From contig JAMFSA010000248.1 of NCBI GenBank assembly GCA_026225055.1, positions 127,332 through 191,331 of the forward strand: DNA of 64,000 bases. Direction: 5' to 3'. The position numbers and the translations under genes are program-made. This document shows positions 1 through 18,822 of this stretch, piece after piece. The notes under the pieces were generated by a model. It searched no databases. It worked only from the letters and a program-made list of their open reading frames with translations, and was not told the origin of the DNA. The DNA comes from Mucilaginibacter xinganensis. GTDB taxonomy: Bacteria; Bacteroidota; Bacteroidia; Sphingobacteriales; Sphingobacteriaceae. How positions within the stretch are numbered: position 1 is the first letter of the stretch; every line of letters begins with the position of its first letter.

Positions 1-1
1 G

Positions 2-2134
2 ATCTTTCGCTCATTTGTAAATGTGAACCCTCTCGCCTGTGCAAAAACGATTACCAATGCATTTGGTCACTTAAGTAAAGAGACCATTATTGGGATGTAT
101 AAAGGACGAAGAAATCTCGTGTGGGCATTAGAACAATTATGTTATAGAGAGGATACTTTTGATTCTTCAATAAAAATTATGGCCGCTTTCGCAGTTGCTG
201 AAAATGAAAATATTGCAAATAATGCCACTCAGCAATTCCTCCAACTGTTTCATATTTTTCTTCCCGGTACAACTGTGAATCTGCAAAAACGGTGGGATAT
301 TATTGAGTATTGCCTGCAAAAAGATGACGATTATAAACAATTAGCTATACAGGCGGCTATGCGCGCACTGAAAACTGAAAGTTTCCGCAGGATGGGAGGT
401 CCGGAAGATGAACAACAGCCAGGGGATTACCGTCCTGCCCCAAATGAAATAATGGAATATTGGTCTAAGGCCATTTCATTATTGGAAGAGTACCTGGTAT
501 ACCCTCAATATACCACGATGATAACCGAACATCTGATAAACTCGTTATATGGTTTATCAAGCCAGTTTGCAGGAAATCTCATTATTCCAGTTATTGAACG
601 ATTATTAGAGAAAAAAGCAGTTGACTGGCTGACGATTAGGAACAAGGTCAAACAAATACTGCGGTCGGGTAACATTTTTGATCAGGGTACTATTGATGCA
701 CTCAATCGGTTACTTGACCAAATTACTCCCGATGACTTTATAGGTAAACTAAAGATGATTGTTGTTCGTCCATCTACAGAGGACTATTTCGCTAAAGATG
801 AAGAACAGGACGGGAAATTATTATCAAAAAAAATAAATGAATTAGCAGCCGAATTTTTAAAGGCTCCTGAGCAATGGGAAGCTTATCTTGCCCCGGTAGT
901 TACTGGTCAGGTCAGTGAAGGTATCAATTTTGGCAAAGAATTGGGAAGCCTGATTAAGGACCAGGCTGAAATGAGGCGGCTCATTCAACTTTTATTGACG
1001 TTAATTCTTAATACAGACCCTGCCAACCGTAATATTGGCGTACTAGTAGGATTTTTACGTACATTGAAATCTAAAGAGGTTCTTCTTGAGACCTTTGATA
1101 CCGTTTTAAACACACCGAATCTTCAGTTCCTGGCCTTTAATATAGCGTCAGGAACCGAATTGCCTTTCGATTATATTGGTCTGATAATAAACTTGATTGA
1201 AATCGGATCTTTCGATGTCAAAATGCTGTCGGTGTTTAACTTTGGATGGGGGCTTAAACATCTTGGCCACGAAGAAGCCCGTGCAATCTTAGAGCGGATA
1301 AGCAAAATAAATAAGGAGGGCGAGGCACTTGCATTTTCAATCGCATATTCTTGGAGTTATAATGACGATAAAATATGGGATGTAAACAAAGATTTTTTGA
1401 GACATTTACTAATTCAGGATGGTGAATTACTTCTGAATGCATTTAGCAGAACTCAGGATCAGTATTATTGGTCGGAATCAGTTCGGAAATTACTCAGGGA
1501 AAACCACGACGACGAACTTGCGGAACTGATTATTAATTTAATTATCGCCAAAAGTAACGATTGGGATTCCTTTGCAGGACGGTCCGATTTTTATAATATT
1601 TTAGACGTAATTCAAGAACGATATTTTGATCAGCTCTGGTCTGCATTGGAGACCGTGTTTTTAGACTTAGAAGAGTATAGCGCTGCCTTGTTTCATTTTA
1701 AAGACCTTCTTGGTGCCAAGCATGATTACTACGCTAAGACGGAGGGCATACTTTTCAAAGGTGAACCCAAAAAGTTTAATACCATTTTTGAATGGTCAAA
1801 AAGTCACCAAAATAAAAGCCTTTATTGGATAGCAGAAATGCTTCCCGTATTTAATAATGACCAGACTGCAACCAGTAAATGGCATCCGTACGCTTTAAAA
1901 TTTATTAATGAACTTGGAAATATAAAAGAAGTGTTGAGTGGAATAAGCGCTAAGATTGGAACTTATTCTTGGGTTGGATCTGTACTTGACCGTTATGACC
2001 TTGTAAAAGCTATGTTCACGGAACTTATTGACCATCCTATTTTAGAAGTTAGGGAATGGGCAGAAGGACATTTGAAAAACACTGAGTCGATGATTGCGTG
2101 GGAAAAGAACCATGAAAGTGAAATGGGGTTCTAA
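2..2134 (+). CDS. Helical-repeat protein, 5'-truncated by window edge
   Basis: The ORF track starts this protein at a GTG (23), but the frame stays open from base 2 to the left edge with no stop, so I read it as the C-terminal part of a longer gene. The visible 700-odd residues are almost entirely amphipathic helices with no catalytic motif. The early stretch with GRR, then NNAT, then FLPGT is a pattern I associate with helical-repeat (HEAT/TPR-like) sensor regions of large STAND or SIR2-type defence proteins; this is family memory, not a search. The next gene follows after 62 bp on the same strand, and the whole neighbourhood is defence-like. The effector or ATPase domain, if any, would lie left of the window. 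The coding status is sure, the function is not. Confidence 0.7.
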   Translation: MFRSFVNVNPLACAKTITNAFGHLSKETIIGMYKGRRNLVWALEQLCYREDTFDSSIKIMAAFAVAENENIANNATQQFLQLFHIFLPGTTVNLQKRWDIIEYCLQKDDDYKQLAIQAAMRALKTESFRRMGGPEDEQQPGDYRPAPNEIMEYWSKAISLLEEYLVYPQYTTMITEHLINSLYGLSSQFAGNLIIPVIERLLEKKAVDWLTIRNKVKQILRSGNIFDQGTIDALNRLLDQITPDDFIGKLKMIVVRPSTEDYFAKDEEQDGKLLSKKINELAAEFLKAPEQWEAYLAPVVTGQVSEGINFGKELGSLIKDQAEMRRLIQLLLTLILNTDPANRNIGVLVGFLRTLKSKEVLLETFDTVLNTPNLQFLAFNIASGTELPFDYIGLIINLIEIGSFDVKMLSVFNFGWGLKHLGHEEARAILERISKINKEGEALAFSIAYSWSYNDDKIWDVNKDFLRHLLIQDGELLLNAFSRTQDQYYWSESVRKLLRENHDDELAELIINLIIAKSNDWDSFAGRSDFYNILDVIQERYFDQLWSALETVFLDLEEYSAALFHFKDLLGAKHDYYAKTEGILFKGEPKKFNTIFEWSKSHQNKSLYWIAEMLPVFNNDQTATSKWHPYALKFINELGNIKEVLSGISAKIGTYSWVGSVLDRYDLVKAMFTELIDHPILEVREWAEGHLKNTESMIAWEKNHESEMGF

Positions 2135-2196
2135 CCGCCACATGTGGAACCAATAGTTTTAATAGTACTCAAATCTTTCAGTTATATTATTGAATC

Positions 2197-3606
2197 ATGT
2201 CTGTATCCTTAGTTTCAAGCCTTCGGGACCTGCTTTTGAAGATTAAAAATAATCCAAAAGAAAGTTTTGCCTTTAGTAAAATCTATGCGGATGAATTGTT
2301 GCTTCGAAAAATGAAAGATTATGTGGTCCAAATATCGAAAGGGAATAAACATGAGCGGCAAATCATTCAAAACGAAATACTCAATAACGGCATCGAAGAA
2401 ATCGTCAAACCAATTCTGCTTAAGTTAGACTCTATAGGTTATACATATCCTCAAAATAACAGTATAATAGAATCGTCTCTGTTTTATGCGATAAGCTTTA
2501 TTATTAACAATTATCCGATGCATATTTGTTGGCATCCCTTTAGATCCGGTATTGAGTATCCTTCCAAGGAAGTCGAACAGATCGATCATTTGATCAATTT
2601 GACTTCGACTGATTATTTTAGTCCATATACCGAACTTAAATATGCAATCGAGAATTGTCTGTTAACCTGGAACTGCAAGGTTTGGAATGTTACGCCAATA
2701 GGAGATTTGTTTTTGAGTTTATCACCCACAACGGCAACTGTCTTTTTGTTAAAGTTGGAGATTTACCTTAACCAACCAGGAACAGAAAATGCTTTTGACT
2801 TTAATCCTTATCACATGAGTCACAAGTTTTTGCAAAAACTTTATGAAGCGCAAAAAGTATATGTTGACTTAGGAGATGCCCGGTATACGCTTCTTGAAGA
2901 CGATCCTAACATGACTTATTTAAGCAGAATTCAAGACTTTGATTTAGTCTATACAAATGATCTTACATTATCTAGACGAAGTCAGGACGAAATTGAAGGA
3001 ATTCAAATGATATATATAGGAGATGATTTTTTTGAAACGCTCCTTACGGATTTTGGTCGTGAAGTAATTGGGCAAGCCATAAATTCCGAAAATAAGTTCT
3101 TAGGAACGCTGATTGAAAATCTTATTAAAATCGAGATTTCCGGGGCTAAGTATTTTGAATTTCACGATAAAAAGGACAATGACGAATTGTTAAATCTCGC
3201 TGCTAATAATAAGGAAATTTTGAACGGGCAATATTCCGTAATCAAAGACATCGTTCAGCATATAAATGCCGGAAAACCTGATATCCATTTACTAAGGAGC
3301 CTTTATCCCTCCATTGAAAGTATTCTTAAAAAAATATTAACCCAGGAAAAATTAATGGATTCTTCTGAACAAAAATTAACACTCTTTACAATCATAGCAA
3401 GATTTCGTTCAGTTTTAGATAAAAAACCTATTCTTAGAAAAGAAACACTGGACTATTTATCGAGCATGGATCGAAATAATATTCTCCACGGTAGCATTAC
3501 CCCAACTGACCAACTCATTTTGTGGTATCTCAATTTGACACTCAATTTCCTTTCGATGGTCTTAAAAGATTATGAAAACCACCGATTAGCCAAAAAGAAA
3601 TTATAG
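2197..3606 (+). CDS. Unknown protein with C-terminal HEPN-like R-x4-H motif
   Basis: A 469-residue soluble protein that I do not recognise as a whole. It has no signal peptide or membrane segment and is mixed alpha/beta through the middle. Near the C-terminus residues 426-432 read RNNILHG, followed by a long hydrophobic helix. R-x4-6-H followed by a helix is the hallmark of HEPN ribonucleases and Abi-type C-terminal domains, so an RNA-cleaving or nucleotide-modifying toxin role is possible. The following PLD-like gene starts only 3 bp after this stop, so the two are almost certainly cotranscribed and perhaps translationally coupled. The upstream helical-repeat gene ends 62 bp earlier. The functional call rests on one short motif and is an inference. 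Confidence 0.6.
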   Translation: MSVSLVSSLRDLLLKIKNNPKESFAFSKIYADELLLRKMKDYVVQISKGNKHERQIIQNEILNNGIEEIVKPILLKLDSIGYTYPQNNSIIESSLFYAISFIINNYPMHICWHPFRSGIEYPSKEVEQIDHLINLTSTDYFSPYTELKYAIENCLLTWNCKVWNVTPIGDLFLSLSPTTATVFLLKLEIYLNQPGTENAFDFNPYHMSHKFLQKLYEAQKVYVDLGDARYTLLEDDPNMTYLSRIQDFDLVYTNDLTLSRRSQDEIEGIQMIYIGDDFFETLLTDFGREVIGQAINSENKFLGTLIENLIKIEISGAKYFEFHDKKDNDELLNLAANNKEILNGQYSVIKDIVQHINAGKPDIHLLRSLYPSIESILKKILTQEKLMDSSEQKLTLFTIIARFRSVLDKKPILRKETLDYLSSMDRNNILHGSITPTDQLILWYLNLTLNFLSMVLKDYENHRLAKKKL

Positions 3607-3609
3607 ATA

Positions 3610-4590
3610 ATGAAATACGAAATATATTTTGATAACCTGCAAGGAGTTATTCACGATGAGGTGGCGAAGGCTAATGAAACAGTGAAAATAGCGATGGCAT
3701 GGCTAAACTTTACACTCTATGGAAAACTTTTTGAAAATTTGCTGGAGAATAAGGTTGCGCTTTCTATTATTCTCGATGATAACTGGGTAAACCAATTATT
3801 TAAAGAAAAAATCGAGATGTTGAAAGGAAGGGGTGCTGATATAAATTTTTTAAAAATGCCGACGAGTATTGACGATTATGGAAAGAAAAAAACCAACATC
3901 ATGCATCATAAATTTGCGATAATCGACGATAGAATAATCTTAAATGGATCATTTAATTGGTCTGAAAATGCCGGTCTGAATTTTGAAAATTTATCAGTCA
4001 TTTCCGGTCATGATTATGCGGTGCAACGATTTAATGACGAATTTGATTTTTTGAAACGTATGGATGAGGGCAAAATCAAGGATTTACAAATTTTGGAAGA
4101 CTGCCCTGCTGATGACTGCGACGGTAAATTGTTTAATCTTTTGCTTTATGACCCTACAAATGTAGACAATTATGAGATGTATGGAAATGTATATGAAGTC
4201 TGTTCAAATTGTCCTTATGATCATTATGAACTATTAGAAAGTGGCGTATCGGATCGTTTTTTTAATAATGTCGAGGAACATAAGGGATCTCAATATGATG
4301 AACTTTTTGATAAGATTAATTCAATGGAAAAGGAAATAAGTGAGGAGGAAAAGAAAAATCTAATCAATGAAATTGACAATTACATTGCCCGTGAATATAT
4401 TTTCTATTTAAATCGCTACGGCTATAGAAAAACTGAAAACCATACGGTGCATGCGATTGGTAAATTAAAGCAGGAAAAAATGTTGAACAAACATGAAGAT
4501 CCGGACTGGATTGCCGAAATTTATTGGAAGGAAAAATTTGCATCAAAATTTATTGATGATGATTACGACTTTGCATTCGATATGCGTTAG
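3610..4590 (+). CDS. Phospholipase D-like (single HKD) nuclease with Cys4 zinc site
   Basis: A 326-residue protein with one HKD motif: H99-x-K101-x4-D106, then GS at 113-114 and N116, the usual PLD-superfamily layout. A single HKD suggests a homodimeric nuclease of the Nuc/BfiI type rather than a two-domain phospholipase. C165, C170, C198 and C201 (C-x4-C and C-x2-C) probably bind zinc, and the C-terminal third is charged and helical. There is no signal peptide, so it acts in the cytoplasm. It starts 3 bp after the HEPN-motif gene and ends convergently 96 bp from the large NTPase gene. PLD nucleases are common effectors in anti-phage modules. The family is clear; the target (DNA, RNA or lipid) is not. 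Confidence 0.8.
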   Translation: MKYEIYFDNLQGVIHDEVAKANETVKIAMAWLNFTLYGKLFENLLENKVALSIILDDNWVNQLFKEKIEMLKGRGADINFLKMPTSIDDYGKKKTNIMHHKFAIIDDRIILNGSFNWSENAGLNFENLSVISGHDYAVQRFNDEFDFLKRMDEGKIKDLQILEDCPADDCDGKLFNLLLYDPTNVDNYEMYGNVYEVCSNCPYDHYELLESGVSDRFFNNVEEHKGSQYDELFDKINSMEKEISEEEKKNLINEIDNYIAREYIFYLNRYGYRKTENHTVHAIGKLKQEKMLNKHEDPDWIAEIYWKEKFASKFIDDDYDFAFDMR

Positions 4591-4686
4591 TTCCTGCATA
4601 TAGATTTAGATGAGAAACTCAATTTCAAGTTACCACACAATTTAATTCCAAGCTTTTCGCTCTAATAGTCTCAACATATTTATATA

Positions 4687-7600
4687 TTAATAGATGATTT
4701 TTTCAAGTAACTTATCGGTGTTGGACTTAAACCTACTATCACGGAGTGTAGTATCGAAAAGCGTTAGCAATTTCTCCTGGTCTTTTTGATGTTTCAGGTT
4801 TCGTTCGGGGCGAAGGGAATTGTAAATACCAATAATCAGATTGACCGAATCTTCTTCATAATTATAGTGATGCTGATTGAATTCATCTGCGGGAATTTGG
4901 TTAACGTGATGAACGACAAATTCAAAAAGTTGCAGGCATTCTTCTGGATAGGAATGACAATGAGTAAGTAAGAACTGAAGAAAATATTCACCTCCGGTAA
5001 TCGCGTCGTTATTGACGTATTTTTTCAGAAAGGGATAAAGCTCTTCAAAGGTGATATGCTCGGCATGAAGAAAACCGGTATGAAACGCACTTTCGATCTC
5101 TTTATCTCTGATTATCACCAATTCCTCTAAAAGTGCTATTGATTTTGAATATGAAGTTTCATTCATATGGATGTATTTCAGCGCATTTCCGACAATTGTA
5201 GGCCTGATCTTAGGAAACTTTACCATAAAGGAATAGAGTAAATCCTTCGCGTTTTCATAGTTATTGTAATAGGCACCGAAGGAAATATTGCCAAAACTCT
5301 CGGCCGTCTTTTCATTTAATTCCGAAGCTAAAACCCGTCTAAGGTAAGGCAAAAGTCGTATGAAGTCATAATGGACAAGGTAAGAGAGCGACCATGCAGT
5401 TTCGATCTGCCACGTGTGTTGTTCGTTATTCAATATTTTTATAAACAGACCAAATGCTCGATCCCTGTTTAAGTTCATGAGATAGGCCAGCCGGTATAGT
5501 ATCGCAGCAATGACAGATAAAGTGTCATTGTCAGCAATTCTGATCAAAGCATCAAATACCCTATCCTCCAAATCTTTTTCCTGAATCAAACACAAGGCAT
5601 GAGCGGCAGCGCCTCTTACTGAGCCTATGCCTTTTGCTATAAGTTGTTCCCCGTCAGCGTTAGCCAAATTGTTATTTTCTTCCGGATCAGGATCATTCTC
5701 CGCTTTGTAAAAAACATAATCGATCAGTTTTTCGTCATTGATATCGTTTCTAATCAGGTAGTCGGCGATCCTTAGACTGGATAATATAAAATAGCCGGTC
5801 AGGTTTTGAGTGATCAATAGCTTAAATAAAGACAACACTTTTACAGGATCATGATTGCTTTCCATCAGGCCCGTTAATCCACTTATATGATAGTCGATTT
5901 TTATTGACCAGTCATCAAAAAGCGAATCCAGTATAGGTATAAATTTTTTCGGAAATTTCTTAACGCTATTCTTAAAGGCCTGTGCATGTTCAGAAAGTCC
6001 GCCCTTGAGAAAGTCGTCCCCCCAGGCATTCATCCCGCGCTCTTGATCAAACTTTTGGAAAGACTTCATCCAGGCATTATAATTCATTTTCTCATAGGCA
6101 TCACTCGATAGCGGTGGGTGAACCATGCCGCCCCTTCCATGATCCGTTTGTATGATAGTGATATTCGGATACCTCCTTTGATATTCGTTAAATTTCCGCT
6201 TGAGCTTTGGGAAACTATTAATCAAATTGTTTGGCAGGCATAAAAGGTATCGATATTTGTTTTGACCAAACCGGGTAGACAAAACTTTCTTATCATCCCT
6301 TGTAAATATAAAATAGTCACTTTCTGGAATGAGATTAATCATCTTTAGCAATTCATTTACTTGTTGCTTTTTGAAGATCGGCAGGCTAGCTTTTAAAAGG
6401 CTCCTTAAAGCGTCGGATAATACGTCGAAGCTGTTTAATGCGCCGATAGCGTTTAGATACATAAACGTCTGAAATACAAACTCTCGATGCTGTTTTTCAT
6501 TGCCCGAATAACTATGAATAATTGCGCGCTGTACCGATAGATAGTTGGATCTTAAATGCTGTGTTAGAAAAGACTGATAAAATTCACTATTTGCTTTGGC
6601 GGACTCTTGTAAAAAAACGAGCATTTGTTGAAATAGGAACGGATCTCCGTGAAGATGTTCTAAATCGAAGTTGATATCGTAAATGATATAATCCTGTATC
6701 AACGGCTTATTGGGGTCGTCATATTTGAGTTCGTCGATCCTGTCAGTAAAATATTGAAACAGGTATTGAAAAGTAAGTTCCGGGATAGTTTCGAAAAGCT
6801 TTTCCAGTAGAGTTTCTTTTCGGTGCTGATCATTACTAATATTCGAAGAGGCATCAACCAGCCAGGCTTTTGTTCTTTCAAATACGTAGTTGGGGTTTAC
6901 CGGCAATAGGTGTTCAAAAATCCCGCTATACCTGAATTCACTTAAGTTAATTTCCCCGCAACTTTCCAATACCGCAATTGCGCCGTCAACACCCCAATCG
7001 TTAAGATGATAAAGCAAGTTTAAGACGACCGTTTTGTTTTCCAGTCTTTTTAAATACGGTAATACCAGCTCCGGTGATACAGAGATATTCTTTTGCAACA
7101 TCGCTAAAGCTAAATTATTTAAAGGTTTAGCCATTGCAATTTCGTCGGATTTGGAGGTTAAGAAGGGAAGCTTTTTTAGCAGATGTTTAAGTGGCCTTGT
7201 CAAACCGGAAACCTTTTCAGGAAACAGCATTTCATCAATAAGGCCGCATTGTATAAAATAACTGATCCATCCGCCGGATACCTGCTCACAAAATGGTATA
7301 AAAAAGATTTTATCCTTTTTTATAATCTTATGTAACAATTCTTTTTCTTTTACGGTTGGGATCTCTACGGCGGCTACCGTTGAAAGAACGAGGTGGTGTA
7401 CATGAAAACGTATTGTTCGGTTATTTAACAATCTGCTCACTTGTTTAAGATAACTTTCCGGGTCGACTTCTCTTAAATAATTCAGGATCATTTTAAGCGC
7501 CGCCCTGGCCAAAATAGACTGATTTTGCTTTTTAAGATAACGGAACAGAGAAGACCGCGATTCTACAAATTGCCTTGCAAAGACATAATCATAAAATGAT

Positions 7601-9288
7601 TGGTGAAAAAACTGAAGTCCGGTATTATCGAATGTGATCAACTGTTCGCTCTTCAAGTATTTTAATTCATTGGCATAGGTATCAAACGATTTTTCACTCA
7701 CTGCAATTTGCTGGCGACGATACATTTCAGCAGCAATAAGAAACAAGGCATCTTTAACACGCCCCGTGTCTAATTGGTGAAGTTCCCTGATACTGTCTAT
7801 TTTCGCATTCCATAGTTCGCTGTAAAGCCCCTGGATAGAGTTAACACCCGCAAAATCGCCAACATCCTTATAAATCCGTGAAAATACATTCAGGTTGTTA
7901 GGCACTCTCAGCAGCTCCAACAACTGACTACTCATGCTCTTGTCGGAAAGCCCGATCTTGACCAATTGTTTTTTGACATCATCTACGGCCAGTGTCTTGA
8001 CTTCTATGGTCTTGATATCCTTATAAGGCCGAAGCGCAGGATCATATAACAGATCGAAATACCGAACGGAGATTATGACGCGGACTATCGGATCATTTTT
8101 GTAACCCTCGATTAAGCCGACATAGGTATCCAGAAAACTCCGGTTGGACGATAGTGATTGGGATAAAGCATCAATCTGGTCAATAATGATAACTAGTGTT
8201 TCAAAATGCTGTTTACATTGATCAATAAACTCCCGGATAGGAACTGAAATGTTTATTTTTTCCTGGAGTTCTTTAAAATTACTAACATATAATTTATCCG
8301 CCTTTAAAGCCAGGCAGGGGATGTTATTCTTATTCAGCTGTTCATAAAGATCCTTCATAATAACTGTTTTGCCATAACCCGCACCTCCGGCCAATAAACA
8401 GATATTTTTAAAATAGCCTGCTACTTCGCAGGACGTTGTTACCCAATTGTACAGCAATTTTGTTTCTGCACGTTCCATATGGGAATCAGGGATTTCACTG
8501 ATGGTGTTTTGCTGGCTGCTGATGGTAGCCGAACCTGTCTTTAATTCCTGCTTGAGCTCTTTTTCTGAAAGCGCGTTGCTTTGTCCCGAACTGATTGATG
8601 CTAACCCTTTCTGCAATACGCTATTGTCTGTAACCGATCTTACCGCAAAAAACAAAGAAGCCAGGCCGCCATTGTAGGGTTTGGTCAGTAAGACATCTAA
8701 ATCTTGGGGAAGAATTTGTTTTACGCTGATCCTAGTCAGCACTTCCAGCACTTCTGCCTTTACGTTGCCTAACCCCAATTCTCTTAATGTTGCGCTTTTT
8801 AAATTTTCACCAATCCACTTATCCAGGTGAGCCTCTGTAAGAATATTTCGGTTAAAATCTTTGATAAATGTAGTACAGTTGGACACAAACCCTTTGGAAA
8901 CCGCGATATAATAAGTAAAGTCATTTAGATCAGCTATGAGCGTATGATCCAACAAATAGTACATTGCAAATTTTGTTATCTCCTGGCCAAAGTCTGCTTT
9001 AGCATAGTTCTCTCCATATTTTTTGCATTGAATAAGCCCGAAATTTTTGCCGTCTTTTATTAAACAACAATCGCTTCCATAGTCACGGACACCATTCATT
9101 AAACTGATCTCTGTATACGGCTTAAAAGCATGCTGATCGATTGCACTTTGATAAAGGGAATAAACCAATTCTTCAAACCGCCGGTCATTGGCCAATTGGT
9201 TATAAGGAAATGGCATCATTTCATACGGAACTGGTTTCAGGTCTCCGTGATCGATAATTTGAGGGTTCTCGTAAGTGAATAGTTGCAT
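4687..9288 (-). CDS. Avs/STAND-like NTPase with N-terminal PDDEXK nuclease
   Basis: A 1533-residue protein in three parts. Residues about 35-110 look like a restriction-endonuclease-type PD-(D/E)xK domain: FEELVYSLY, then D73 in a GSD context, then QCKK at 87-90. Residues about 290-480 are a P-loop NTPase with Walker A GGAGYGKT (K307) and a Walker B hydrophobic strand ending in DQID (D370/D373). The remaining roughly 1000 residues are helical repeats of the sensor type. Nuclease, STAND-like ATPase and long repeat region together is the layout of Avs antiviral proteins, which bind a phage protein and activate the effector. Subfamily (Avs1-4 or another STAND clade) cannot be set by eye. It is divergent from the DUF1016 gene and convergent with the PLD gene, so it probably works alone. 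Confidence 0.75.
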   Translation of the reverse strand: MQLFTYENPQIIDHGDLKPVPYEMMPFPYNQLANDRRFEELVYSLYQSAIDQHAFKPYTEISLMNGVRDYGSDCCLIKDGKNFGLIQCKKYGENYAKADFGQEITKFAMYYLLDHTLIADLNDFTYYIAVSKGFVSNCTTFIKDFNRNILTEAHLDKWIGENLKSATLRELGLGNVKAEVLEVLTRISVKQILPQDLDVLLTKPYNGGLASLFFAVRSVTDNSVLQKGLASISSGQSNALSEKELKQELKTGSATISSQQNTISEIPDSHMERAETKLLYNWVTTSCEVAGYFKNICLLAGGAGYGKTVIMKDLYEQLNKNNIPCLALKADKLYVSNFKELQEKINISVPIREFIDQCKQHFETLVIIIDQIDALSQSLSSNRSFLDTYVGLIEGYKNDPIVRVIISVRYFDLLYDPALRPYKDIKTIEVKTLAVDDVKKQLVKIGLSDKSMSSQLLELLRVPNNLNVFSRIYKDVGDFAGVNSIQGLYSELWNAKIDSIRELHQLDTGRVKDALFLIAAEMYRRQQIAVSEKSFDTYANELKYLKSEQLITFDNTGLQFFHQSFYDYVFARQFVESRSSLFRYLKKQNQSILARAALKMILNYLREVDPESYLKQVSRLLNNRTIRFHVHHLVLSTVAAVEIPTVKEKELLHKIIKKDKIFFIPFCEQVSGGWISYFIQCGLIDEMLFPEKVSGLTRPLKHLLKKLPFLTSKSDEIAMAKPLNNLALAMLQKNISVSPELVLPYLKRLENKTVVLNLLYHLNDWGVDGAIAVLESCGEINLSEFRYSGIFEHLLPVNPNYVFERTKAWLVDASSNISNDQHRKETLLEKLFETIPELTFQYLFQYFTDRIDELKYDDPNKPLIQDYIIYDINFDLEHLHGDPFLFQQMLVFLQESAKANSEFYQSFLTQHLRSNYLSVQRAIIHSYSGNEKQHREFVFQTFMYLNAIGALNSFDVLSDALRSLLKASLPIFKKQQVNELLKMINLIPESDYFIFTRDDKKVLSTRFGQNKYRYLLCLPNNLINSFPKLKRKFNEYQRRYPNITIIQTDHGRGGMVHPPLSSDAYEKMNYNAWMKSFQKFDQERGMNAWGDDFLKGGLSEHAQAFKNSVKKFPKKFIPILDSLFDDWSIKIDYHISGLTGLMESNHDPVKVLSLFKLLITQNLTGYFILSSLRIADYLIRNDINDEKLIDYVFYKAENDPDPEENNNLANADGEQLIAKGIGSVRGAAAHALCLIQEKDLEDRVFDALIRIADNDTLSVIAAILYRLAYLMNLNRDRAFGLFIKILNNEQHTWQIETAWSLSYLVHYDFIRLLPYLRRVLASELNEKTAESFGNISFGAYYNNYENAKDLLYSFMVKFPKIRPTIVGNALKYIHMNETSYSKSIALLEELVIIRDKEIESAFHTGFLHAEHITFEELYPFLKKYVNNDAITGGEYFLQFLLTHCHSYPEECLQLFEFVVHHVNQIPADEFNQHHYNYEEDSVNLIIGIYNSLRPERNLKHQKDQEKLLTLFDTTLRDSRFKSNTDKLLEKIIY

Positions 9289-9397
9289 AATATTTAGCCA
9301 AGATAAAAAGTATTTCCCGACTCTTTAATTGCTTGTGTAATGTACGGCACGATCAACAGTATATATAAAGCATTAGATAAATTCTTAATTTTGGTCA

Positions 9398-10990
9398 ATG
9401 GAGTCATATTCAAATTATCAAGCTTTTTTTTTACGGCTTAAGGCACAAATTCAGACGGCACGGGTAAAAGCTGTTTTGTCCGCCAATAAACAGATGCTGG
9501 AACTTTATTGGTGGATAGGCAATGCCATCAGGACCCAGCAAGCGGCAGAGGGGTGGGGTACAAAAGTTATTCAGAAACTATCCTTTGATCTAAAAGCAGA
9601 ATTTCCTGACTTGAAAGGTATTTCAGAGCGGAATTTGAAATATATGCGCGCTTTTGCTAGTGCTTACCCATCTTTTGTGCAAGATACACTTGCACAAAGT
9701 GTGGATAGTTCAGCGGTTGTAAGCAACACTGAATTTGTGCAAGTACCGCTTGCACAAATCACCTGGTATCACCACATTACCTTACTCGATAAGGTCAAGG
9801 AAGAAAAGCATCGGTACTTCTATATTGAAAAGATCATTGAAAATGGGTGGAGCAGGGATGTAATGGTAAACCAGATCGATTCCGGCCTACATTTAAGGCA
9901 GGGCAAACTCCAGCATAATTTTCCGAGTACTTTGCCTGCCTCCAAAAGTGATCTGGCACGGGAATTATTTAAAGACCCGTATAGGTTTGATTTTTTTCAA
10001 CTTACGCAGGAAGCCAGTGAGCGTGATCTGGAAGATGCCCTGGTTAGCCATATCTACAAATTCTTACTAGAAATGGGCAAAGGCTTTGCTTTTATGGGCA
10101 AGCAAGTACATTTGGAAAAAGGAGGGCAAGATTATTATTTAGACCTGCTTTTTTACCATACTAAATTGCATTGTCACGTTATCTTGGAATTGAAAATAGG
10201 TGACTTTAAACCTGAATATGCAGGAAAAATGAATTTCTATCTTTCCGCCTTCGATGAAGACTATCGCACGGCGGAAGATGGCCCCACTATAGGCATCATC
10301 CTATGCAAAAACAAAAATAAGGTTACCGCCGAATACGCGTTAAGGGATGTAAACAAACCAATGGGCATTGCTGAATATCAATTTACAGCCGCTATTCCGG
10401 CAGACTTGAAAGGCGAGTTACCAAGCATCGAAGACTTGGAAGTAGAACTGGAAAAGGAGTTGAAAATACCCAAAACTCTTATAGATGAAAAACTGGACAA
10501 ACTTAATAATCTTGTAAACCATATCGGGCAACAAGAGATCAAAGAAAAGCTAAGCGTTGACAGAACAAGGGTGATCTTTAATGAGGTGATCTTCGAATTA
10601 AAAAACAAAGTCGAGATCTTATTGGACCCCATTTTTAAAATGTTCAGTGAAAATATTATATCCTATTCTATAAATGGACGTTCTTCTTTTCTAGGCTCCA
10701 CAGATTTGGAAGCAGATTTACTTACCGGACATAATATCCATGAATTGGGTCTAAACATAGAATTAAATGGCTTTAAAAAAGCAGGCTTAAAATCTTTTAA
10801 TTCTTACAGCGACCTCAAATTCTTTTTAGAAAAATATAAGTATCAGGTTGGGCCAAGTCGCCAGACAATTTGGCAAGAACATCTTTATGACAAAGAATGG
10901 ACGACTGAAAACCTGCAAATTTTAGCCCAAAAATGGACCGAATCGATCATTGAAGAAGTCCACGGTTCAATAGAAAGAATAAGTATATGA
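9398..10990 (+). CDS. DUF1016 (YhcG-type) PDDEXK nuclease with C-terminal extension
   Basis: A 530-residue protein. Residues about 1-140 match the YhcG/DUF1016 N-terminal domain (ELYWWIGNAI, then SERNLKYMRAF, then ITWYHH). Residues about 190-350 match its C-terminal PDDEXK nuclease domain, with D249 in YYLDLLFY and E264-L-K266 as the active-site elements. DUF1016 proteins normally end near residue 350-360 with the LPSIEDLE-type tail seen here. This one continues for about 170 more residues of mixed helical sequence that I do not recognise, in the same frame. Between the domains is a duplicated peptide (FVQDTLAQ/FVQVPLAQ) encoded by two DNA palindromes. The stop overlaps the start of the SIR2-like stub (ATGA). 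Proteins of this family occur with restriction-modification and other defence genes. Confidence 0.85.
   Translation: MESYSNYQAFFLRLKAQIQTARVKAVLSANKQMLELYWWIGNAIRTQQAAEGWGTKVIQKLSFDLKAEFPDLKGISERNLKYMRAFASAYPSFVQDTLAQSVDSSAVVSNTEFVQVPLAQITWYHHITLLDKVKEEKHRYFYIEKIIENGWSRDVMVNQIDSGLHLRQGKLQHNFPSTLPASKSDLARELFKDPYRFDFFQLTQEASERDLEDALVSHIYKFLLEMGKGFAFMGKQVHLEKGGQDYYLDLLFYHTKLHCHVILELKIGDFKPEYAGKMNFYLSAFDEDYRTAEDGPTIGIILCKNKNKVTAEYALRDVNKPMGIAEYQFTAAIPADLKGELPSIEDLEVELEKELKIPKTLIDEKLDKLNNLVNHIGQQEIKEKLSVDRTRVIFNEVIFELKNKVEILLDPIFKMFSENIISYSINGRSSFLGSTDLEADLLTGHNIHELGLNIELNGFKKAGLKSFNSYSDLKFFLEKYKYQVGPSRQTIWQEHLYDKEWTTENLQILAQKWTESIIEEVHGSIERISI
9674..9759. repeat. Two perfect inverted repeats inside DUF1016 gene
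   Basis: TTTGTGCAAG-ATACA-CTTGCACAAA lies at 9674-9698 and ATTTGTGCAAG-TACCG-CTTGCACAAAT at 9733-9759. Both have arms of 10-11 bp without mismatch and 5-nt loops. The units are about 60 bp (20 codons) apart, in the same frame, and encode the repeated peptide between the two DUF1016 domains. Each could form a strong hairpin in DNA or mRNA. Confidence 0.85.
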
Positions 10991-11085
10991 ACAAAAAAAG
11001 AGTTGTTTTCTTATTTGGAGCAGGAGCAACATTGGGATGGGGTTCACCACTTACATCCGAGCTTACTACCTTGATGTGGCTATAA
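10987..11085 (+). pseudogene. Truncated SIR2-like gene (N-terminal 32 codons)
   Basis: The start codon overlaps the DUF1016 stop as ATGA, a typical coupled arrangement. The 32-codon reading frame encodes VVFLFGAGATLGWGSP before a TAA. GAGA(S/T)-x-GxxxP following a hydrophobic strand is the nucleotide-binding start of SIR2-like NADase domains found in phage-defence proteins. A SIR2 domain needs over 200 residues, so the gene is broken. The 320 bp downstream show no continuation that I could recognise in any frame, so the break looks like a deletion or replacement rather than a point mutation. The domain call rests on one short but characteristic motif. Confidence 0.6.
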
Positions 11086-11407
11086 CCTTTAGTTAATTAC
11101 TCATATATCCACAGGCTTTTTAATCAGAGTAGAGAATGCCTTTTTTTTACAAAAAGGTTACTGATGGACAGTAAACGACCAAGAGATTGGCCTATACAAA
11201 ACGCGTCCTACAATGCTTTTAGGTTGGTCAACCATCCTGAAACAAGTGTTAAAAATCTGTTCTGCTTTTTAATATAAGATTGGTAACGAAACGAATCATT
11301 GGTAATTTACGTCAGTTTTAGCTTTTCTGTCCCACGAATTCCATATTCATCACATTTTTAAAAAGCGTAATTTCCCACCTTGTATCATTGTAATAAATAA
11401 ACAGACA
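11086..11407. other. Gap after truncated SIR2-like gene
   Basis: About 320 bp with no supported gene. A 37-codon ATG frame near 11165-11278 has no recognisable content. This stretch contains the putative deletion junction and the leader of the LytS-type kinase gene. I see no clear terminator. Confidence 0.5.
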
Positions 11408-12961
11408 ATGAAAATAAAAATAAGAAAATACGAACAATTGCTCGTCGCCTTGTTGGCCTTAATAGCAATCATTAATTATGTTTTGCAGCGCTTAAATCTG
11501 GCTCCGATTTATGTTACCGGGTTTGAACAGTATAACAAAATTCACCACAACCTTCCTTTTAATTATTTTATTAATATGTTGTTGCCGCGTACCGGCATCG
11601 TGTTATTATTAATGGTTGTTTATTTCTGGGTTAATCTTTTTACTATACCGCAATTACGAACTAGCTATAGGTCATTCTTTATTTATCCCTGGGTTTTACT
11701 TCAAATACTGCTTCTAAGCTACCTGCTTGCCATCGGTGTAAACATTGCAAGCTATTATGCACATCCGGCATGGAATAACTATGGAGAATTTTCGTTATTC
11801 GCTTCATTTGGATATAATGAAAAACCATTAACTAATTTATGGGTGGGGTTCGATAATGCGCTGATCTTATTATTCGGCTATGGAATTTACGCTGGTATCC
11901 GCGAATATATTGTATATCGCTTCGAAAGCTCCGGTCCAAGAAGTAATTACAGGATACTGATCGCCAATCAAATTGCTGCTTCCTTATGTATTTTCTTGCT
12001 GCTGCCTAACCTGATATCCGCTTTCCATATTGTTAACGATACTGGCATCTATCAGGCTTATTTTGTTTTTATACCGTCAGTTATATTTGTCTATTTCAGT
12101 AATACCTATTGGCTTTTTCCCCGCTTTGCAAATACGCCCGACATTTCTTTTCAACTGATTTGGCGTCTTGCATTTTCTACCTTGCTTTATTCATTTCCTT
12201 TTGCGTTATTTTTAAACAAAGCAGGCGTAATGCCAAACATGTGGCTAATTAGCTGCATAATTCAGTTCATTGTTGTTACACCAGTGACCTGGATACTTTA
12301 CCAGCAGCGAAAGGATAAGATAAGGGAATTGAGAGGTGCCGAAATTGCATTATCCAAATCGACCGCCGATTTGAAGTTCTTGCGTTCGCAGATTAATCCA
12401 CACTTTTTGTTTAATGTCCTTAATACAATATATGCTATGGCACTTGTAGATGGCTCCAAAAGAACAGCTAACGCTGTGCAAATGCTAGGCGATATGATGC
12501 GATTTATGCTGGACGACAACCACCTCGATTTTATTCCTTTAGATAGTGAATTGAATTATCTAAGAAATTACATTGCATTGCAAAAATTACGCATCCAGAA
12601 TTCAGACCAGATTAATATAAGTGAGGATATAACTGTTGAAGATTGTAGCCTTGAAGTTATCCCGATGTTGCTGATTCCTATAGTAGAGAATGCTTTTAAG
12701 CATGGGATAAACTTGAATGAAAAATCCTGGATCAAAATAAATCTAACATGCAGCCACAATAATATCCATCTCGAAGTAAGGAACAGTTTACACCTGAAAG
12801 AAACTAACGATCCTGAAAAGAAGCATACCGGTATCGGTTTGTTAAATGTTAAGGAACGGCTCTTGCTGTTTTACGAAGGTAGGCACGAGCTCAGTTATGG
12901 TGCAACAGAGAATGAGTTTATTGCCGAACTCATTATTAAACCCGAAACCCATAAGTTATGA
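11408..12961 (+). CDS. LytS/AlgZ-type membrane histidine kinase
   Basis: A 517-residue sensor with about eight hydrophobic segments between residues 8 and 300, then a cytoplasmic kinase. The His_kinase (LytS family) phosphoacceptor motif INPHFLFN is present with H332, followed by the long helix of the dimerisation region. An HATPase_c-like domain covers about 395-510 (IVENAFKHG as the N-box, then GIGLLNVKERL). The signal sensed is unknown, as there is no recognisable periplasmic domain. The stop overlaps the start of the LytTR response regulator (ATGA), so the two form a cognate pair in one operon. Such pairs are abundant in Bacteroidota. Confidence 0.9.
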   Translation: MKIKIRKYEQLLVALLALIAIINYVLQRLNLAPIYVTGFEQYNKIHHNLPFNYFINMLLPRTGIVLLLMVVYFWVNLFTIPQLRTSYRSFFIYPWVLLQILLLSYLLAIGVNIASYYAHPAWNNYGEFSLFASFGYNEKPLTNLWVGFDNALILLFGYGIYAGIREYIVYRFESSGPRSNYRILIANQIAASLCIFLLLPNLISAFHIVNDTGIYQAYFVFIPSVIFVYFSNTYWLFPRFANTPDISFQLIWRLAFSTLLYSFPFALFLNKAGVMPNMWLISCIIQFIVVTPVTWILYQQRKDKIRELRGAEIALSKSTADLKFLRSQINPHFLFNVLNTIYAMALVDGSKRTANAVQMLGDMMRFMLDDNHLDFIPLDSELNYLRNYIALQKLRIQNSDQINISEDITVEDCSLEVIPMLLIPIVENAFKHGINLNEKSWIKINLTCSHNNIHLEVRNSLHLKETNDPEKKHTGIGLLNVKERLLLFYEGRHELSYGATENEFIAELIIKPETHKL

Positions 12962-13668
12962 ACAAGCTGCGAGCGATTGCCATAGACGATGAACCCTTCG
13001 CATTAGAGGTCGTCAAAAACTTACTGGAGGAGGTGCCATTTGTGGAATTAGTTGAATCTTTCACCAAAGCGATTGACACCATTACATTCCTTCAGGAAAA
13101 TACAATCGATATCATCTTTTTAGATATTAAGATGCCCGGCCTGTCCGGAATTGAATTTATAAGATCACTTTCGAATCCGCCAATGGTAATATTTACTACT
13201 GCTTATAACGAGCACGCGGTACAGAGCTTTGAATTGGATGCTATTGATTATTTACTGAAACCGTTTTCTTTTTCACGACTGTTAAAAGCATGCAATAAGG
13301 CTATGGCGCTATACCAATTGAAAGTCAATTCCGGCCAGGCGGTTACTGAACCGTTACCAGCGATATTTATAAAGAGCGGCTATGAACAAGTAAAAATAGA
13401 TCTCGCCAATTTGCTCTATGTAGAAAGTGTCGGCAACTATATTCGGTTCCATTTAACGACTCAAACTATTGTTTCCCGCCTCACTATGGCTGAAGCAGAA
13501 GACTTACTACCGTTAAAAGCCTTTGTTAGGGTTCACCGATCATTCATTGTCGCTAAAACAAAAATAACCAGGATTGATAAACGATGCGTTTGGCTAACAG
13601 AGCGGGGAGTTCCTATTGGCGTTTCTTATGCGCCAGAAATAGAAGGTCTGCTAAAAAATAAAACATAG
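12958..13668 (+). CDS. LytTR-family response regulator
   Basis: A 236-residue protein. The receiver domain is at about 3-120 with acidic pocket D10/D11, phosphoacceptor D56 (FLDIKMPG), a conserved T in the IFTTAY strand and K in LLKPF. A LytTR DNA-binding domain occupies about 138-232 (FIKSGYEQVKI, then YVESVGNYIRF, then FVRVHRSFIV). It is the output partner of the overlapping LytS-type kinase. LytTR proteins bind paired direct repeats upstream of targets; I could not assign a target here. Confidence 0.92.
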   Translation: MNKLRAIAIDDEPFALEVVKNLLEEVPFVELVESFTKAIDTITFLQENTIDIIFLDIKMPGLSGIEFIRSLSNPPMVIFTTAYNEHAVQSFELDAIDYLLKPFSFSRLLKACNKAMALYQLKVNSGQAVTEPLPAIFIKSGYEQVKIDLANLLYVESVGNYIRFHLTTQTIVSRLTMAEAEDLLPLKAFVRVHRSFIVAKTKITRIDKRCVWLTERGVPIGVSYAPEIEGLLKNKT

Positions 13669-13879
13669 TAAAGGCGAAAAAAATTGGAGACTATATACGT
13701 GTTAGACCACGCCTCTTTCTATTTTTTGGAAAGACTTGTAGCATATCGAATAAGAAAAAGCGAAGCTAAGGAGCAAATGAAGCCAATAGCACCCATCCAA
13801 AACTTATTAGTATTGTACGACAATATCATTGCTGTAAAAGTCGCTGCTATAAAAACATACATTATTAAGTAATTACTCT

Positions 13880-13993
13880 TCATTTCTCGATTTGTGTTTT
13901 AGGGTTGCGATATATATATTTTGCGGTAAAAAATCCTGCTCCGAAAGCAAACAGAGAACCTACGAAATACATGAAAAAATATTGAACGTTCAT
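13880..13993 (-). CDS. Small single-span membrane protein (37 aa)
   Basis: Too short for the ORF track. It reads MNVQYFFMYFVGSLFAFGAGFFTAKYIYRN followed by a short polar tail and TGA. There is one clear transmembrane helix (about residues 5-24) followed by a positively charged segment, so the C-terminus is probably cytoplasmic. The start lies 4 bp after the stop of the 43-residue lysine-rich ORF on the same strand, which suggests an operon running from the lone receiver gene. The function is unknown. Its coding nature is inferred from tight spacing and a sensible membrane profile. Confidence 0.5.
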   Translation of the reverse strand: MNVQYFFMYFVGSLFAFGAGFFTAKYIYRNPKTQIEK

Positions 13994-13997
13994 AATG

Positions 13998-14129
13998 CTA
14001 TTTTTTAGACTTTGGTTTATTATCTTTCTTTTTAGGCGGTTTACTACCCGTAGCCTTAGGCGATACCGATGCCTTATTTATATTATGAAAGATGGTTGAT
14101 GCCTCTTTGGGAGTTTTCTCTTTTGCCAT
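13998..14129 (-). CDS. Small lysine-rich protein (43 aa)
   Basis: Not in the ORF track. It begins MAKEKTPKEASTIFHNINKAS and ends in a Lys/Pro/Ser-rich tail (KPPKKKDNKPKSKK). The basic, low-complexity tail suggests nucleic-acid binding or a disordered linker; no enzyme motif is present. It sits 12 bp downstream of the 64-residue ORF and 4 bp upstream of the 37-residue membrane ORF, all on the minus strand. I recall similar short proteins in Sphingobacteriaceae but cannot verify it here. Confidence 0.5.
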   Translation of the reverse strand: MAKEKTPKEASTIFHNINKASVSPKATGSKPPKKKDNKPKSKK

Positions 14130-14141
14130 AGTCTAAGGTAA

Positions 14142-14336
14142 TTATTTTTTTTCTAATTGGGCAATCAGGTCGTTTTTGATGTGTTCGGGGAGATAATTTT
14201 TGAATTGCAAGGGCTGTCCATCATGCGATGGTATTTCGATATAATCTAAGATCATAGTTTTGGTATCAATAAAAAAATCGTGATGTTTGGCTTGTACGAA
14301 TAATACCGCCCTTTCTAAATCGTCCCAGTATTTCAT
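14142..14336 (-). CDS. Small hypothetical protein (64 aa)
   Basis: A 64-residue soluble protein starting MKYWDDLERAVLFVQAKHHDFF. Its start codon overlaps the stop of the upstream receiver gene (ATGA type), which strongly supports coding and cotranscription. It contains no signal peptide, membrane segment or known motif and is predicted mixed alpha/beta. Coupling suggests it works with, or is regulated alongside, the receiver protein. Confidence 0.65.
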   Translation of the reverse strand: MKYWDDLERAVLFVQAKHHDFFIDTKTMILDYIEIPSHDGQPLQFKNYLPEHIKNDLIAQLEKK

Positions 14337-14686
14337 AAAGCCATTTCTTTAACTATTTTTTCCAAACCAAATAAATCAAAAGGCTTTGTTATAAAAGCAT
14401 CGGCGCAACTATCGGCGGCTAACGTTTCAAGGTTCATTGCTGCGGAAAATAAAATAACAGGGATGTGTTTTGTTTCGGGGTGTTGTTTAATGGCTAAACA
14501 AAGGTCTTTTCCTAACTCGCTACCTAAATGGTGGTCTAATATGATAATGTTTGGGTTTAACTCTATTATTTCAGCTAAAGGTATCGACCTTATATGTTTG
14601 TATACCTCAAACTCTTGACCTTCAAATAAATAAGCTATTATATCAATTATATCTATGTCATCTTCTATAATCAATAGCTTTTTCAT
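14333..14686 (-). CDS. Stand-alone response regulator receiver protein
   Basis: A 117-residue protein that is only a CheY-like receiver: acidic pocket E8/D9/D10, phosphoacceptor D51 (IILDHHLG), S81 and K101 (ITKPF). No output domain follows, so it must act by binding a partner, as CheY- or Spo0F-type proteins do. No cognate kinase is adjacent on this strand. The next three genes downstream encode 64-, 43- and 37-residue proteins in a compact operon. Confidence 0.88.
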   Translation of the reverse strand: MKKLLIIEDDIDIIDIIAYLFEGQEFEVYKHIRSIPLAEIIELNPNIIILDHHLGSELGKDLCLAIKQHPETKHIPVILFSAAMNLETLAADSCADAFITKPFDLFGLEKIVKEMAL

Positions 14687-14772
14687 TAAGGAGGGATTTA
14701 GTTATCGAACCTACATTATATAAACCGCATAACTGCTACATAAAAATAATATCTCGTAGCTTTGTTGCACAA

Positions 14773-14860
14773 GAAAGCCCCGATAACCTATTACTGCTCG
14801 TGAGACACCACTCATGAGATGGTTGGTTAACGAGGTTTGGACTGGATGTATTTTCAGTCC
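14773..14860. repeat. Nested inverted repeats (structured patch)
   Basis: CCCCGATAACC (14778-14788) pairs imperfectly with GGTTAACGAGG (14825-14835). Within it CTCGTGAG (14797-14804) pairs with CTCATGAG (14811-14818). Immediately after, GGACTG (14839-14844) pairs with CAGTCC (14855-14860). The nesting suggests a folded RNA or cruciform element. Identity unknown. Confidence 0.5.
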
Positions 14861-15417
14861 TCAATCTTCAATGCTGGTTCGTTCTGTTTGCTTAGTGATT
14901 GTTTCGCTGGGTGGGCATTCGTGGACGGTTGACGAGGCTGTTCCGTGCGCTTTGGAACACCGAGTTGTGTAGACAATTAGAAAAATCGGAATTGTTGGTT
15001 GCTCAACAGTTCAATAAGGGATGTTTTGTTCAACATGCCGCACATCTTATCGCTTTAACAAAACGCCTGTTTATTCTGATTCACAATTCCATTAAAAAAT
15101 TTAATAATCTGGATATATCAGCTGGGCTAGGATATTTAAATTATAGAAATACTACGATATATCCGGTATTTTTGTTATTTTGAGTAGCTGATCATCGGAT
15201 CAGTTACTTTGTTTAGCGACGAACAAAATGTTTGCCATATCTACTTGACATATAGCTAAAAAAAAGAATTTCAGGAGACTCATAATCTTTTATTATAGTT
15301 CAGCAAGTTTTCTTGTAAAACTTCTCGAAAATTTAGTCGCAATGTGTATTCAATAGTGGTTAATTTCACGGGATGGAAAAAAATTGTTATTTTTGATCAG
15401 TCGACATTATAGTCCTC

Positions 15418-15439
15418 TTGTTTTACAATTGTTTTACAA
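15418..15439. repeat. Tandem 11-bp repeat TTGTTTTACAA
   Basis: Two abutting copies of TTGTTTTACAA lie at 15418-15428 and 15429-15439. An inverted partial copy (CTTGTAAAAC) lies at 15312-15321. They are within about 150 bp of the tRNA-His remnant, where arm-type recombinase sites would be expected. That role is an inference. Confidence 0.7.
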
Positions 15440-15466
15440 GATGATTTGGTCGACAGTCAAGTTTCT

Positions 15467-15544
15467 GTAATTGAGGACTTTATATAGGTGTACCGTTAGT
15501 TTGTGGTACCGAGGGTCGTGGGTTCGAGCCCCATCATTTACCCA
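15467..15544 (+). other. tRNA-His 3'-half remnant, probable att site
   Basis: From 15501 the sequence reads as a tRNA 3' half: anticodon loop TTGTGGT with GTG (His), variable loop GGGTC, T-arm GTGGG-TTCGAGC-CCCAT, acceptor strand CATTTAC and discriminator C, as in tRNA-His. Upstream, GTAATTG can pair with the acceptor strand with one mismatch and the anticodon stem has one mismatch, but no D-arm can be drawn, so I do not call a functional tRNA. A tRNA 3' end with its own terminator but no proper 5' half is what remains at one end of an element integrated into a tRNA gene. Confidence 0.6.
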
Positions 15545-15545
15545 G

Positions 15546-15580
15546 AATGCCTCTCATGAAAATGAGGGGCATTTTTTATT
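15546..15580 (+). terminator. Intrinsic terminator after tRNA-His remnant
   Basis: AATGCCTCTCAT and ATGAGGGGCATT pair over 12 bp (one G-T) around a GAAA-type loop, followed by a T-run. It directly follows the tRNA 3' end, as expected for the original tRNA gene's terminator. Confidence 0.85.
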
Positions 15581-15646
15581 TAGTTTAACTTAAGTTAAAA
15601 CTAAATAAATTAATTAGATTGATTTTTATTTGCAAAAATCGCTACC

Positions 15647-16234
15647 ATGAACGAACACCACGAGGCTTTGAAGCTTCACCTGAAGGATTTTGCCGGTCTT
15701 ACCGAAAAGGATATGAATAACGCTATCACTTATTGGAGGACGAGGAAAATACCGAAGGGAGATTTCTTCAATATGCAAAATGTTGTATGTAATGATCTTG
15801 GGCTTGTAGTAAAAGGGATCTTCAGAATCTATTATAACGACCCGGAAACAGATGAACAAAAGAATATATTTTTCATATCCGAAAATCAATTTATTGTTTC
15901 ATTTCGCAGTTTTATTACCCGTTATCCCTGTTATTATTACATTGAAGCCATGGAAGATGCCGAGATCGTATACATCAATTATAAGGACCTGAACGCTCTG
16001 TATGATACCCACCCCAATTGGAGTAAATTCGGCAGGCTTTTGGCCGAACTGTTTTTTAACTATTCCCAGGCCCGCACGGAGGAGTTTCTTTTTAACTCAC
16101 ATGAGGAGCGCTATATCAAATTGACCGAAGAACATCCTAATATCATTAATCGCATCCCGGCATACCATATTTCATCCTATCTGGGTATCACTAATCCTTC
16201 GTTAAGCAGGATCAGAAAGAGGATCAATCTTTAA
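15647..16234 (+). CDS. Crp/Fnr-family transcriptional regulator
   Basis: A 195-residue protein of the cyclic-nucleotide-binding-like regulator type common in Bacteroidota. The N-terminal beta-rich sensor (about 20-120) is followed by a long helix and a C-terminal helix-turn-helix (about 155-190), with YLGITNPSLSRIRK as the recognition region. The first base of the start codon lies about 65 bp beyond the tRNA-type terminator, so it has its own promoter in that gap. It converges on the DUF308-like membrane gene and shares a hairpin terminator with it. The ligand is unknown. Confidence 0.85.
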   Translation: MNEHHEALKLHLKDFAGLTEKDMNNAITYWRTRKIPKGDFFNMQNVVCNDLGLVVKGIFRIYYNDPETDEQKNIFFISENQFIVSFRSFITRYPCYYYIEAMEDAEIVYINYKDLNALYDTHPNWSKFGRLLAELFFNYSQARTEEFLFNSHEERYIKLTEEHPNIINRIPAYHISSYLGITNPSLSRIRKRINL

Positions 16235-16268
16235 ACCGCCGGCAGTTTTATACGAATGCCGACGGTTT
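16233..16268. terminator. Bidirectional hairpin between convergent genes
   Basis: AAACCGCCGGCA and TGCCGACGGTTT pair over 12 positions with one mismatch and a 12-nt loop. It lies between the convergent regulator and membrane-protein genes, with A/T-rich flanks on both sides. Confidence 0.7.
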
Positions 16269-16278
16269 GATTAATCGG

Positions 16279-16869: not shown

Positions 16870-16959
16870 GATTTTTGATTTTGTTTATACCGTCAAAAAT
16901 CTTCATTATTCAGTAAGCAGTTTTTCACTTAAGTTAAAATGGCGCAACAATATTAATAG

Positions 16960-18318: not shown

Positions 18319-18822
18319 CTATTTGGTAGTAACAGTACTCATTTTGGCAAATTCCACATCATTAGGCTCCCATAATTCTATCTTGTTGCCTTCGGGATCC
18401 ATGATGTGTACAAAATTACCGTAGCTTGTTTTTTGTATGCTGTCAACCTGTAATATACCTGCTGTTTTCATGTTGGCTAAAAGCTGATCTAATCCTACCA
18501 CACGGTAATCGATCATAAATTGTTTTTCGGAGGGCTGAAAGTACTTGGTGGTTTCCTTAAACGGTGCCCATATGGTAAATCCCTTTTTTGTACTGTCCAT
18601 TCCCTGGTGCCATTCAAAGTTTGAACCGAATCCGCCTATGGTAATGCCCAGGTTTTTGCTATACCAGGCTTTAAGCGCCGCAGGGTCTTTGGCCTTAAAA
18701 AAGATACCGCCAATACCCGTTACCCGCGGACCGCTATTGACGGGATTAGTTAAACGACTGAATCCATAACCCAACAAGAATGCCGCACAAAGCAGGCAGA
18801 TTAAAGTAAACTTTTTCATCAT
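18319..18822 (-). CDS. Exported VOC (glyoxalase-like) protein
   Basis: A 167-residue protein with an N-terminal hydrophobic anchor or signal (about 5-24) and then a vicinal-oxygen-chelate fold: GIGGIFFKAKDPAALKAWY at the start and FVHIMDPEGNKIELWEP at the end, the usual paired beta-alpha-beta modules of one VOC domain. E148 (in KIELW) is a usual metal-ligand position. Most VOC proteins are cytoplasmic, so the leader is slightly unusual. The substrate is unknown. Confidence 0.85.
   Translation of the reverse strand: MMKKFTLICLLCAAFLLGYGFSRLTNPVNSGPRVTGIGGIFFKAKDPAALKAWYSKNLGITIGGFGSNFEWHQGMDSTKKGFTIWAPFKETTKYFQPSEKQFMIDYRVVGLDQLLANMKTAGILQVDSIQKTSYGNFVHIMDPEGNKIELWEPNDVEFAKMSTVTTK

Follow-up and report, generated by a model that had tools for sequence, protein, structure and literature searches.

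Several mobile elements of the Bacteroidetes are known to target tRNA genes (NBU1, NBU2 and CTnPi3; PMC5704250, PMC4755523). NBU1 inserts in the 3′ end of tRNA-Leu and NBU2 in that of tRNA-Ser, both being mobilizable elements of Bacteroides (PMC5704250), and CTnPi2-b and CTnPi3 of Prevotella intermedia are conjugative transposons that also lie in tRNA genes, in another genus than the one studied here (PMC4755523). The NBU1 integrase belongs to the IntCTnDOT subgroup, in which the first catalytic arginine may be missing while another arginine downstream is conserved (PMC8138268). CTnDOT itself is site-selective with little homology between its sites, and CTnDOT-like ICEs have been reported in Mucilaginibacter with attL and attR left undefined (PMC6316836).

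Here we analyse a tRNA-His locus in a 6.64-Mb draft genome of Mucilaginibacter (G000). The window, which is the whole 64,000-nucleotide stretch under study, is C136:127332-191331 of a 191,331-bp contig (C136). We conclude that positions 15499-15543 of the window are almost certainly the attR of a 142.7-kb ICE (C136:83-142829) inserted in the tRNA-His of the chromosome. This conclusion is drawn from sequence, namely from the two ends and their repeat, the arm-like repeats, unoccupied sites in relatives, further elements that share these ends, and conjugation genes. None of the papers searched describes a tRNA-His site in this group.

Results

The initial annotation had noticed a tRNA-His 3′ end without a D-arm, followed by a terminator, and read it as the scar of an integration. 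We found that all 45 bases of this tail (GTTTGTGGTACCGAGGGTCGTGGGTTCGAGCCCCATCATTTACCC) are identical to positions 32-76 of an intact tRNA-His(GTG) at C136:52-127. The acceptor 5′ strand, the D-arm and most of the 5′ anticodon strand are absent from the window copy, and the sequence to its left is not tRNA. The chance expectation for an exact 45-bp repeat in the contig is about 1e-16 pairs. A functional tRNA-His in the window was ruled out, since ARAGORN predicted no tRNA there and an Rfam search of the window gave no match at the gathering threshold. The features at this end are as follows.

15419..15428 (C136:142750), + strand: putative arm-type site 1 of the integrase (TGTTTTACAA); distance to the core 80 bp in G000, G044 and G034
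15430..15439 (C136:142761), + strand: putative integrase arm-type site 2 (TGTTTTACAA), 11 bp after site 1
15499..15543, + strand: attR core, the displaced 3′ part of tRNA-His (anticodon loop, T-arm, acceptor 3′ strand), 45/45 identical to C136:83-127
15547..15579, + strand: native tRNA-His terminator (hairpin), stranded on the far side of the element

The hairpin at 15547-15579 is taken to be the tRNA gene's own terminator because a matching hairpin directly follows the intact tRNA-His in G134, G098, G126 and G085. It is thus displaced by 142.7 kb, and the terminator that now stands behind the restored tRNA was supplied by the element.

The initial annotation had predicted, to the left, an intact tRNA-His whose 3′ end is identical and which has an integrase beside it; both are present. 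The intact gene (C136:52-127, anticodon GTG) lies on the same contig, 142,747 bp left of the tail, and is followed by a hairpin terminator and, 173 bp after the tRNA, by a tyrosine-integrase gene (C136:301-1545). A search of the genome found no second full tRNA-His gene. The sequence left of the tRNA is on a separate contig, C239, whose link to C136 is a 114-bp overlap only, and the estimated contamination of the assembly is 5.2%.

The integrase is full length (414 aa) and matches the Pfam phage-integrase SAM-like core-binding domain (E 3e-10); the match to Arm-DNA-bind_5, the arm-binding domain expected at the N-terminus in the IntCTnDOT subgroup along with subterminal arm sites, is weak (E 0.076). 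A comparison with PDB sequences gave no match. The AlphaFold model of an 84%-identical relative (L112; mean pLDDT 84, pTM 0.50) resembles the structures of XerH and lambda Int. An alignment of 12 integrase sequences retained R359, H360, H383 and Y394, which by motif agree with the second arginine, both histidines and the tyrosine expected at the active site. Box I is an invariant GMN without arginine, and R291 and R298 downstream of it are invariant. The absence of the first catalytic arginine is shared with the CTnDOT integrase (PMC8138268).

Both ends of the element are flanked on the inside by a repeated 10-mer, TGTTTTACAA. It occurs four times in the contig (C136:266, 277, 142750 and 142761) and not at all on the other strand, against about 0.8 copies expected, and all four copies adjoin the two element ends. 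They form pairs with an 11-bp period; the left pair lies 138-139 bp inward of its core and the right pair 80 bp. The four sites recur in G044 with the spacing seen in C136, plus one unrelated interior copy on the other strand. G034 has the left pair as in C136, and its right pair consists of one exact copy and one with a variant last base. We regard these pairs as putative arm sites of the integrase.

Related elements with the same ends were found in these two genomes. G044 carries an 84%-identical integrase at tRNA-His and the 45-bp tail 89,346 bp away, and G034 a 76%-identical integrase with the tail 72,281 bp from tRNA-His. In both, the integrase is related and the ends and arm-site spacing are as in C136. 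Among 150 genomes of the genus, all seven full-length integrases at least 76% identical (G000 included) start 161-173 bp after tRNA-His, as does an integrase pseudogene in G062; truncated copies in G041 and G099 are remnants away from a tRNA. Integrases of 39-51% identity (L113-L122) lie, wherever a tRNA could be identified, behind tRNA-Met, -Ser, -Lys or -Val. The target tRNA seems to follow the integrase clade. The exact 45-bp site at tRNA-His differs from the site-selective insertion of CTnDOT, where the sites have little homology (PMC6316836), and the identity of the repeat and the position of all seven close integrases do not fit insertion in that style.

The CTnDOT core, GTANNTTTGC, a consensus for which the literature searched gave no confirmation, resembles the attR of G044 (GTAAGTTTGT) and is not used as evidence.

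The chromosomal surroundings of the tRNA were compared across the genus. A glyoxalase-like gene lies downstream of tRNA-His, in conserved orientation, in 17 genomes, at a gap of 0.3-197 kb. The gap is 293 bp in G119, 437 in G098, 844 in G121, 1,215 in G126, 1,328 in G131 and 1,580 in G134; the larger gaps run from 5.9 to 197 kb, with 145.5 kb in G000. Island-free relatives, which the initial annotation had proposed for comparison, therefore exist: G119, G098, G126 and G134 have empty sites, the last three with the native terminator. G121 and G131 have a short extra tail within the gap and are not strictly empty. Homologs of the right flank lie downstream of tRNA-His in G026 (32.7 kb) and G099 (197 kb), a C239 homolog lies upstream of it in G026, and the upstream region is common to G026 and G099. 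In both genomes, by this comparison, tRNA-His connects the left flank (C239) with the right flank. Two genes outside the element are as follows.

15647..16234, + strand: cNMP-binding regulator, first gene outside the element (Pfam cNMP_binding); no copy close to the locus in G026 or G099
18319..18822, - strand: glyoxalase-like gene, conserved right-hand chromosomal neighbour of tRNA-His (Pfam Glyoxalase_6, just below curated cut-off)

Between tail and glyoxalase-like gene lie roughly 2.8 kb (15544-18318) with the gene of the cNMP-binding regulator and two others; at the DNA level this stretch has no counterpart at the locus in either G026 or G099.

The element contains a transfer region at C136:83.5-100 kb, with a relaxase (PF03432, E 1.6e-19), a VirD4-type coupling protein (PF10412/PF12696), a VirB4-type TraG (TIGR03783, above cut-off), TraJ, TraK, TraM and TraN. 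TraK (TIGR03781), TraM (TIGR03779) and TraN (TIGR03780) score above the curated NCBIfam cut-off, and TraJ (E 3e-20), MobB and MobC below it. A recombinase gene located at one end, att sites in direct repeat, a relaxase, a coupling protein and a VirB4 ATPase are the sequence features of an ICE, and TraJ/K/M/N-type mating-pore proteins, TraJ being below cut-off, are those of MPF type B. Since all of these transfer functions lie inside, we assign the element to the ICEs of Bacteroidetes (MPF-B) type. CTnDOT and CTnDOT-like ICEs, which are MPF-B, likewise carry TraG/J/K/M/N family genes and a MobB/MobC-like relaxase and coupling protein. NBU1 and NBU2 share with the C136 element a tyrosine integrase and insertion at the 3′ end of a tRNA gene, but they are mobilized by helper ICEs, whereas the C136 element has its own T4SS genes and targets tRNA-His.

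Most of the transfer region is common to G044 and G099, in the same order and at roughly 40-80% protein identity. G034 retains only its coupling-protein end, so the G034 element may be only mobilizable and not self-transmissible. Next to the transfer region lies a class I/II aminotransferase gene (C136:77671-78927; L009:17671-18927), which is 86% and 76% identical to the copies in the G044 and G099 elements, above most of the transfer genes.

The right part of the ICE falls in the window and holds these features.

1..15498 (C136:127332-142829), no strand: cargo in the right part of the ICE, whose limits are the 45-bp repeats; the remainder extends left to C136:83
1..2134, + strand: 3′ part of a PD-Lambda-4_A-like defence gene (whole gene C136:125653-129465, 1270 aa; PADLOC PD-Lambda-4_A, E 3e-47)
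2197..3606, + strand: 469-aa neighbour of the PD-Lambda-4_A-like gene; neither PADLOC nor Pfam gave a match
3610..4590, + strand: PLD-domain protein (Pfam PLDc_2, E 2.5e-15)
4687..9288, - strand: 1533-aa AAA NTPase, defence candidate (Pfam AAA, E 1.5e-6; PADLOC PDC-M54A, E 1e-14)
9398..10990, + strand: DUF1016/YhcG nuclease, PADLOC candidate PDC-S02 (Pfam YhcG_C, E 6e-62; PDC-S02, E 1e-143)
11408..13668, + strand: pair of histidine kinase and LytTR response regulator (Pfam His_kinase, Response_reg, LytTR)
14333..14686, - strand: single-domain response regulator, last sizeable gene of the element (Pfam Response_reg)

The defence genes had been suggested to belong to a mobile island, and indeed the defence-like genes at 1-11 kb of the window all lie within C136:83-142829. 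The PADLOC-matched genes are candidates for an anti-phage block of the element. Elsewhere the element has a GmrSD pair (C136:65-69 kb) and a caspase-domain gene (53-54 kb). The cargo of the right part differs among the elements compared. GC content was uninformative as an island signal (42.3% inside vs 40.7% outside).

Other insertions were observed at the same tRNA. In G099 the gene of a large serine recombinase (C1:1273457-1274983; L055:18257-19783), with Resolvase, Recombinase and zinc-ribbon domains, abuts the tRNA-His 3′ end, and pieces of a serine-recombinase gene follow the attR in G034 and a further tail on contig C191 of G000. From these positions the two recombinase types seem to share the site. 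The C191 tail is the third tRNA-His tail of G000 (39 bp exact), and is followed by the serine-recombinase fragment and by a copy of the integrase with an internal deletion; these features lie at C191:117707-117751 and 116384-116916 (L003, L014). We considered C191 as part of the C136 insertion, and this was ruled out, as C136 is continuous across the element; the C191 tail (C191:117707) therefore lies elsewhere or belongs to another strain. Comparison of a 20-kb piece of C191 gave no match in G026 and barely any in G099. In G044 a second, imperfect tRNA-His tail lies about 1 kb past the attR tail (G044:C7:142550-143576), followed by a native-type terminator, and is probably the leftover of an earlier insertion. 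Insertions thus seem to accumulate at tRNA-His.

Discussion

The reading of the tail as an integration scar held up: the 45-bp repeat, the integrase at its other copy, the related elements and the empty sites all bear it out, the window has no functional tRNA (ARAGORN, Rfam), and a second copy of the 3′ sequence exists upstream. That the tail might instead be a decayed tRNA pseudogene, or a duplicated fragment unlinked to integration, would account for a truncated tRNA without function, yet it is refuted by the exact identity over 45 bp, the integrase at the other copy, the native terminator adjoining the tail, the identical ends in two other genomes and the empty sites; we give it practically no credence. 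A tyrosine integrase beside a tRNA is characteristic of prophages as well, and a prophage or satellite rather than a conjugative element would fit that part of the data. We consider this highly improbable given the transfer genes, on which the distinction rests: VirB4/TraG, TraK, TraM and TraN score above curated cut-offs and are accompanied by a relaxase and a coupling protein.

A more serious alternative, though still an unlikely one, is that the island has lost a former mobility or is composite: several elements would have accreted at tRNA-His, the ends being those of the last arrival and part of the content being older. At 142.7 kb the island is large beside the 89 and 72 kb of its relatives, and about 55 kb of metabolic-type genes on its left have few close counterparts in G044 or G034. 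It also holds two diverged PRTRC-like modules (C136:57275-62242 and 120587-125274, thus at 57-62 kb and 120-125 kb), each with ssb-like, PRTRC E, ThiF-family and macro-domain-like genes; their presence may hint that two elements have fused. The tandem remnants at the site in G044 and G034 and the serine-recombinase element in G099 are in line with accretion. Against this, no internal tRNA tail with at least 16 exact bases splits the island in C136, the arm-like repeats lie at the outer ends only, the integrase is full length and the transfer region is continuous.

Our preferred reading remains a single ICE bounded by the 45-bp repeats. In this model the tyrosine integrase most likely recombined the attP of the circular element with tRNA-His at or next to the anticodon loop. 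The element would bring an identical tRNA 3′ half with its own terminator, leaving the gene intact on the left (attL), and the original 3′ half with the native terminator would be pushed to the far right (attR). The repeat begins two bases ahead of the anticodon loop, as would fit a crossover within that loop, flanked by the inverted repeat of the anticodon stem, a position that we infer. With positions 32-76 and a terminator of its own, the element restores the tRNA gene, and this restoration would be essential since the genome search found no second full tRNA-His gene. In this reading the element would be able to excise and to transfer itself, and it probably moves between soil bacteria.

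More tentatively, and with somewhat less than even confidence, we propose that an IntDOT-like clade without the first catalytic arginine is strictly specific for tRNA-His, that sister clades took tRNA-Met, -Ser, -Lys and -Val, and that a large serine recombinase unrelated to them targets this 3′ end of tRNA-His as well, with elements of both types stacking there.

What is new is an exactly delimited tRNA-His hotspot and its empty sites. A large conjugative element of the Bacteroidetes thus has precisely placed ends, putative sites for integrase binding and naturally unoccupied target sites, in a genus for which a published study could not place attL and attR (PMC6316836). The defence-like cluster of the window is cargo of this element and not a fixed chromosomal trait, and the tRNA-His locus can be used as a marker for finding and delimiting such elements across the genus.
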